Shown here: in pieces, positions 25,048 to 26,379 of the stretch | Position numbering within the stretch: position 1 is the first letter of the stretch | Layout: the number at the start of each line of letters is the position of its first letter | Assembly (NCBI RefSeq): GCF_006274605.1 | Contig: NZ_CP040846.1 | Location: 620,001-684,000, forward strand | Length of the DNA: 64,000 nt | DNA from: Thermococcus indicus | Lineage (GTDB): Archaea; Methanobacteriota_B; Thermococci; Thermococcales; Thermococcaceae | Direction of reading: 5' to 3' | Notes under the pieces: model-generated | Told to the model about the DNA's origin: nothing | The model's database searches: none | What the model saw: only the letters and a program-made list of their open reading frames with translations | Program-made: the position numbers and the translations under genes

Positions 25048-26379
25048 ATGAAGGTCCGCTGTCCTAGCTGCGGGCGCCTCTATTCTTCCCTTATTCCCCC
25101 GAGTTGCTCCTGCGGGGAGCGTCTGGAGATATCCTACGATTACGAGAAAGTTGATCCTTCCAGGTGGCGGAACCGTGAACCGGGCGTCTGGAGATACAGG
25201 GAGCTTCTGCCGGACGTCCCCGAGGTCGTGAGCCTTCGGGAGGGGGGCACGCCCCTCATAAGGGCCAAACTCGGCCGCGAGCTTGGACTCAACGTCTTCA
25301 TCAAGGACGAGACCAGGAACCCCACCGGCTCTTTCAGGGACCGTCTCGCGACTGTCGCAGTCTCTTATGGCCTCCCTCACGCAGAAAACGGCTTTGTGGT
25401 GGCGAGCAATGGGAACGCGGCAGCTTCCCTTGCCGCGTATGCCGCAAGGGCTGGCAGACCCGCCTACACCGTCGTGCCAAAGCTCGTGGAGCAGGGCAAG
25501 CTCAATCAGATAGTGGCCCTCGGGGCGAAGATCATAAGATACGGGGAGAGCGTGGACGAGGGCATAAGCTACGCGGAGGGGCTCGCGGAGGGCAAGGGAC
25601 TCTACAACGTCACCCCCGAGAGCAACCTCGTCGGTCTGGAGGGGCAGAAAACGCTGGCCTTCGAGCTCTGGGAGGATTTGAACCCGACGCACGTGATAGT
25701 CCCGACCGGAAGCGGCAGCAACCTCTACAGCATCTACAAAGGCTTCAGGGAGCTCATCGCGGTGGGTGCGGTTGAAGAGATGCCGAAACTGATCGCCGTT
25801 CAGGCCGAGAAGTGCTCCCCCATAGCAAGCGAGGTGCTGGGCGTTGAGCCGCGGGCCGAGCTGACCAAGGCGCTGGCCCTGTATGTGAAGAGCCCCGTCA
25901 TGAAAGAGCTCGCCCTGGATGCTATACACGCCAGTGGGGGGACCGCTGTTCTCGTCGGCGAGGACGAGCTTGACCTGGGGCAGCGGCTCCTTGCAGGGGA
26001 GGGGATATTCGCGGAGTACGCCTCCTCGGTTATCGTCCCGGCACTCCTCAAACTGGCGGAGGAGAATTATTTCGAACGTGACGACAGGATAGCCCTTATA
26101 GTGACAAGTTCAGGCCTCAAAGGGCATTACTCCGAGAGCAGGGAGAAGTTCAGCGTCGGCGGAACCAAGCTCGAGATACTGAAGCTGCTGAGCGGGAGGA
26201 GCATGTACGGCTATGAGATATGGGAGTCACTGGAGAAGCCGCTCAAGTACCAGGCCGTTTACCAGCATCTGCGCGAGCTCGAGAGCATGGGGCTTATCGA
26301 GGAGACCCACAGAAAGGGGAGACGGGTCTATTACGGGCTGACGGAGAGGGGCAGGAGGTTCCTCGAGACCCTCGGGTAG
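25048..26379 (+). CDS. Threonine synthase-like protein without the PLP lysine, fused to a PadR-type winged helix
   Basis: 443 residues. An N-terminal zinc ribbon (CPSCG, CSCG; 5-24) leads into a fold-type II PLP domain like threonine synthase: NPTGSF (91-96), ASNGNAAAS and PTGSGSN. The family sequence GSFKDR, whose lysine holds PLP, reads GSFRDR: residue 97 is Arg (AGG, 25336-25338). Residues about 367-443 form a PadR-like winged helix (LLSGRSMYGYEIWE, AVYQHLRELESMGLIEE, GRRVYYGLT). I infer a ligand-sensing transcription regulator derived from the enzyme. ATG 25048 follows GTGGTGA; the gene is 25 bases downstream of fttA. Catalysis by another residue cannot be excluded. Confidence 0.82.
   Translation: MKVRCPSCGRLYSSLIPPSCSCGERLEISYDYEKVDPSRWRNREPGVWRYRELLPDVPEVVSLREGGTPLIRAKLGRELGLNVFIKDETRNPTGSFRDRLATVAVSYGLPHAENGFVVASNGNAAASLAAYAARAGRPAYTVVPKLVEQGKLNQIVALGAKIIRYGESVDEGISYAEGLAEGKGLYNVTPESNLVGLEGQKTLAFELWEDLNPTHVIVPTGSGSNLYSIYKGFRELIAVGAVEEMPKLIAVQAEKCSPIASEVLGVEPRAELTKALALYVKSPVMKELALDAIHASGGTAVLVGEDELDLGQRLLAGEGIFAEYASSVIVPALLKLAEENYFERDDRIALIVTSSGLKGHYSESREKFSVGGTKLEILKLLSGRSMYGYEIWESLEKPLKYQAVYQHLRELESMGLIEETHRKGRRVYYGLTERGRRFLETLG

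Follow-up and report, generated by a model that had tools for sequence, protein, structure and literature searches.

A protein of 443 aa, encoded on the forward strand at positions 25048..26379 of the window (stop codon included; 25048-26376 without it), is probably an archaeal PdxR-like regulator of vitamin B6 supply, most likely a repressor, which is built upon a catalytically dead fold-type II enzyme that would sense PLP. The window is the whole stretch of 64,000 nucleotides of Thermococcus indicus DNA that was analysed, and the features of this gene that are given below by position lie on its forward strand. This reading is based upon comparative sequence evidence of three kinds, viz. the residues lost and kept in the enzyme-like domain, a predicted operator in the promoters of pdxS (PLP synthase) and of a gene for the S component of an ECF transporter (the S gene), and the genomic neighbourhood of the regulator in other archaea.

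An enzyme fold joined to a winged helix

The N-terminal part of the protein resembles threonine synthase (TS). A zinc ribbon formed by Cys5, 8, 20, and 22 (25060..25113), in which these residues are invariant or nearly so across 64 orthologues, precedes a TS-like fold-type II PLP domain (PALP; residues 61-353, 25228..26106), which is matched by Pfam PF00291 with 222.6 bits. A PadR-type winged helix follows at 26161..26373; its match to PF03551 covers residues 377-440 and scores 39.3 bits versus a cut-off of 27, and its helices and wing are present in the AlphaFold monomer model. This model (pLDDT 84.9) agrees with solved threonine synthases, and the linker ahead of the winged helix (residues 356-371) is of low confidence in it. 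The NCBIfam model NF004170, with which the window protein scores 747 bits, names this whole architecture 'threonine synthase'; with the thrC model TIGR00260 it scores 135.6 bits, which is under the cut-off of 167.1. An earlier note, made from the DNA letters without database searches, had described this gene as encoding a Lys-less TS pseudoenzyme joined to a winged helix, and its reading of the frame, the length, the NPTGSF, ASNGN, and GSGSN motifs and the AGG triplet at codon 97 was confirmed, as were both domains by Pfam.

Enzymes of the threonine synthase type require the Schiff-base Lys of the GSFKDR motif. In the window protein this residue is replaced by Arg97 (25336..25338), as is seen from both the codon and the alignment of orthologues. 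Arg is present at this site in every Thermococcales orthologue that was read except one (L069, with Lys), which supports the reading of the earlier note, and because six different codons encode it in these species (AGG, AGA, CGC, CGT, CGA, and CGG), Arg itself must be under selection. A separate TS with an intact Lys (SFKDR), which the same note had suggested looking for, is found elsewhere in this genome at C1:2108389-2109447 and scores above the TIGR00260 cut-off; a third PALP protein is encoded at C1:589607.

Residue counts were obtained from an alignment of 122 rows, consisting of 100 members fused to a winged helix and 22 non-fused TS-like proteins. At site 97 the fused members contain Arg (73), Lys (10), Leu (5), Thr (4), Ile (3), Met (2), Ser (1), Val (1), or Ala (1), the hydrophobic residues being found in a distant subgroup, whereas all 22 of the non-fused proteins have Lys. 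The Arg that contacts the substrate phosphate in TS, which we take to be R160 of the Tth enzyme, is present at the aligned position in 20 of the 22 non-fused proteins and in none of the 100 fused members, those with Lys included; the window protein has Gly196 at this place (25633..25635). In contrast to these losses, the residues equivalent to PLP contacts are retained by nearly all of the 100 fused members, viz. G221 (99) and G223 (100) of the PLP-phosphate loop GSGSN (25708..25722), N123 (98) of the SNGN loop (25405..25416), T353 (95), and K358 (100). As judged from these residues, the fused family is composed of pseudoenzymes, in which the cofactor pocket is kept but catalysis and the phosphohomoserine site have been lost. 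It is thus highly improbable that the protein has remained a PALP-family enzyme whose winged helix serves for assembly only; the NF004170 label and the 10 Lys-bearing members are in favour of such an enzyme, but 90 of the 100 members have a residue other than Lys at the Schiff-base position, and even the members with Lys lack the substrate-phosphate Arg. Of the ligands that the earlier note had put forward (an amino acid, phosphohomoserine, or PLP), phosphohomoserine is rendered unlikely by the complete absence of this Arg, while PLP is favoured as discussed below.

The family that is mislabelled in this manner spans the Thermococcales, Bathyarchaeia, Desulfurococcales, and Asgard archaea. Orthologues were detected in more than half of the 61 genomes from the genus to which the window belongs and in almost all of the remaining Thermococcales, and a scan of named genomes and 397 Thermoproteota genomes revealed full-length fused members in the Bathyarchaeia, Desulfurococcales (Thermogladius), Njordarchaeota, and Lokiarchaeota. 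The presence or absence of the regulator was scored for each genome by profile searches, and some of these assemblies are incomplete. A sister family (G061-G064), showing 41% identity to the window protein, also has Arg at site 97. In a tree constructed without this site, the fused members were separated from the other proteins (SH-aLRT 95) and the Lys-bearing members were nested among them. The fused proteins of these archaea are likely an old family of B6 regulators, in which an early loss of Lys would have given rise to a reversible, non-covalent PLP sensor that is an independent counterpart of PdxR. Two Thermoproteota matches (L164 and L165) score like members from the Thermococcales, with one in-frame TGA read through.

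A predicted operator at pdxS and the S gene

The promoters of pdxS and of the S gene in those Thermococcales that possess the regulator (regulator-plus genomes) contain a predicted operator, TTCAAGTT-NN-AACTTGAA, which is 16 bp long with 14 scored positions. The site was found in the S promoter, after which a whole-genome search with the operator core yielded the match at pdxS. Of 66 pdxS promoters that were compared, a site scoring at least 11/14 is present in all 44 from regulator-plus genomes versus one of the 22 from regulator-minus genomes, the latter promoters having scores of 8-10 apart from this single, marginal case at 11. The site is located at the TATA box or just downstream of it, and many genomes have a second one. 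Similarly, the S-gene promoter carries the site in 30 of 34 regulator-plus genomes, the sites being weak in the other four (L270, L277, L291, and L293), versus 0 of 10 regulator-minus genomes that have kept the S gene. In random 150-nt windows the score never exceeded 10 (0/3000), and the 13 zero-mismatch sites detected across 14 regulator-plus genomes all belong to either pdxS or the S gene. The genome of T. indicus itself contains sites at C1:75851 (S gene, one mismatch) and at C1:398456 and 398480 (pdxS, two mismatches each). By the pdxS tree, the presence of the regulator must have changed at least three times; as these genomes are related, p-values are indicative only. Taken together, the distribution of the predicted sites indicates that the regulator controls genes for both B6 synthesis and uptake.

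Some individual genomes are also informative. In G083, the genome of a natural Lys variant, pdxS and the S gene are each preceded by an operator, and hence the loss of Lys is not what defines a B6 regulator. In G040 (73% complete) the pdxS operator is present and the regulator was not detected. The regulator gene is apparently frameshifted at two loci, L074 (G098) and L083 (G036), and the first of these genomes retains operators at both target genes. One further site in the T. indicus genome (C1:1014872, one mismatch), close to where an uncharacterized ORF begins, was set aside, as the number of such sites is similar to that for a reversed-pattern control. No site indicative of autoregulation by the same operator was found in 52 Thermococcales regulator loci. 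In several regulator-minus Thermococcus genomes, an imperfect palindrome of the TTCAAATCNNNATCTGAA type follows the pdxS TATA box and might serve another regulator that has taken over (upstream of pdxS in L324, L325, L231, L326, L340, L241, L242, L229, and L331).

The action on DNA that the earlier note had proposed is very probable, but its suggested target, a threonine/methionine operon at 1-6.5 kb, was not upheld: this operon has no operator, and the best 16-mer of the whole window scores 10/14, which is equal to background. The targets indicated by the operator and the gene neighbourhood are instead pdxS and the S gene, both of which are located outside the window.

The recognition helix of the regulator is predicted to be KYQAVYQHLRELE (26248..26286), within which Q402, A403, Q406, and H407 do not vary among 64 orthologues, whose identities are as low as 41%. 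Its core, QAVYQH, is common to the sister family, and in three genomes of the latter a related palindrome, TATACAAGTATTTYCTTGTATA, is present directly 3' of the S-gene TATA box. As the operator has been assigned by co-occurrence, the palindrome might be bound by another transcription factor which the presence of the regulator gene merely tracks. This is very unlikely, since the regulator has a winged helix of its own whose near-invariant recognition helix occurs in two lineages with related operators, and since it is housed in the S-gene operon in other phyla. Binding of the palindrome by the regulator itself is therefore preferred. In the distant group with hydrophobic residues at site 97, where the regulator and S genes are divergent, another palindrome of the AGCCTATATATAGGCT type is present in several intergenic regions; four of seven regions have at least eight paired bases, whereas 60 shuffled draws gave 0.7 on average and never more than 3. 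For the Bathyarchaeal members no common operator was found, the inverted repeats upstream of them being inconsistent.

Association with an ECF S component

Outside the Thermococcales, a gene for an ECF-transporter S component (PF07155) adjoins the regulator gene in 63 of 99 loci. The two genes are usually co-directional and separated by a median of about 50-70 bp, and the pair is observed in the Arg, Lys, and hydrophobic subgroups. In the Thermococcales, the regulator is mostly found directly after aCPSF1/FttA, away from the S gene. The closest solved chain to the S component is the S chain of 4HZU (HmpT; E 2.7e-16 for the S protein of T. indicus), from which the extracted substrate was pyridoxamine (PMC4860826). 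The S protein of T. indicus, as read from the alignment, keeps Trp76, Tyr120, Asn140, and Gln143 of HmpT and differs from it in having Asp for Glu41 and Lys for His84, in its archaeal origin and in that its role in transport is a predicted one. Riboflavin, the cargo implied by the Pfam name of PF07155, is disfavoured by the match to HmpT and by the operator in common with pdxS.

An S orthologue is present in all 52 regulator-plus Thermococcales genomes of at least 90% completeness, and no near-complete Thermococcales genome is missing both the S gene and pdxS. In the Thermoproteota, pdxS is absent from 65 of 71 regulator-plus genomes versus 138 of 326 others, and the pair in these species therefore looks like a salvage transporter together with its regulator.

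Several other arrangements were observed. An AIR-synthase-like gene (related to ThiL/SelD/HypE) comes after the S gene in L098, L099, L110, L112, L113, and about 24 more Bathyarchaeal loci. A glutamine-synthetase-like gene is located on the opposite strand near the regulator in L152, L156, L164-L167, L202, and L204, and in L152, L156, and L164-L167 a gene that by eye is Lrp/AsnC-like is found between them. In Thermococcus (L274:4449-5945) the S gene comes after the gene for a class-III aminotransferase, which is a PLP enzyme, and the operator is located in the interval. Lastly, one clade of the Bathyarchaeia has the regulator in divergent orientation to a canonical TS gene that retains the Lys, the two often being less than 300 bp apart (L100, L101, L106, L107, L111, L117, L161, L179, L180/L208, L185, L188/L209, and L210-L213).

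The SxGN loop holds the substrate carboxylate in fold-type II enzymes. Its retention here, together with the divergent thrC of the clade just mentioned, would suit a regulator of the same B6 genes whose ligand is an amino acid, e.g. threonine, or an adduct of PLP with an amino acid. We regard this as unlikely, for the regulon is one of B6 supply, the threonine/methionine operon is without a site and the thrC neighbour is confined to a single clade. PLP itself is favoured as the ligand, because the PLP cup is kept and the regulon concerns B6.

A proposed counterpart of PdxR and its significance

In the mechanism that we propose, the TS-like domain with its kept PLP cup would bind free PLP reversibly, and this binding would set the winged helices of a dimer, which would recognize TTCAAGTT-NN-AACTTGAA beside the TATA box of pdxS and of the S gene, the latter encoding an HmpT/PdxU-type ECF S component for predicted B6 uptake. 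With an ample supply of PLP, the regulator would block both promoters. Repression by promoter block is the simplest reading, because the site lies between the TATA box and the start codon. From these comparisons we infer PLP as the ligand, a dimeric state, repression rather than activation, and B6 as the cargo of the S component.

PdxR, a bacterial MocR factor of the GntR family, appears to be the nearest known system in function. Its regulon includes pdxST and B6 transport, and Archaea are said to lack MocR factors (PMC5320631). Both PdxR and the window protein are enzyme-derived, PLP-linked regulators with a wHTH, and in both the regulon would consist of PLP synthesis and B6 transport, the comparative evidence in this case being the predicted sites in the promoters of pdxS and of the ECF S gene. 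However, PdxR consists of a fold-type I aminotransferase domain with an N-terminal GntR wHTH, whereas the window protein has a fold-type II PALP domain that has lost its Lys and a C-terminal PadR wHTH. With ThrC it shares the fold-type II structure, the zinc ribbon, the PLP-phosphate loop, and the Asn and Thr contacts, but it differs in the absence of the Schiff-base Lys and the substrate-phosphate Arg, in the added wHTH and in its predicted B6 regulon. Although its DNA-binding domain is above the PadR family cut-off, this domain is placed behind an enzyme fold and the ligand-binding helix of PadR was not identified in it. By its sequence, the protein would thus be placed outside both MocR and threonine synthase.

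In the open-access literature we found neither a published archaeal B6 regulator nor a description of the TS-wHTH fusion as a regulator. According to a survey of how Bacteria and Archaea make PLP, most prokaryotes have no identified B6 transporter (PMC9997740). The present work proposes for archaea both a regulator of B6 and a transporter for it, and it indicates that the 'threonine synthase' labels assigned through NF004170 are wrong. The 16-bp operator is immediately testable in the genetically tractable Thermococcales. Additionally, the family would provide a natural example of the conversion of an enzyme into a sensor, for which its Lys-bearing variants may serve as controls.
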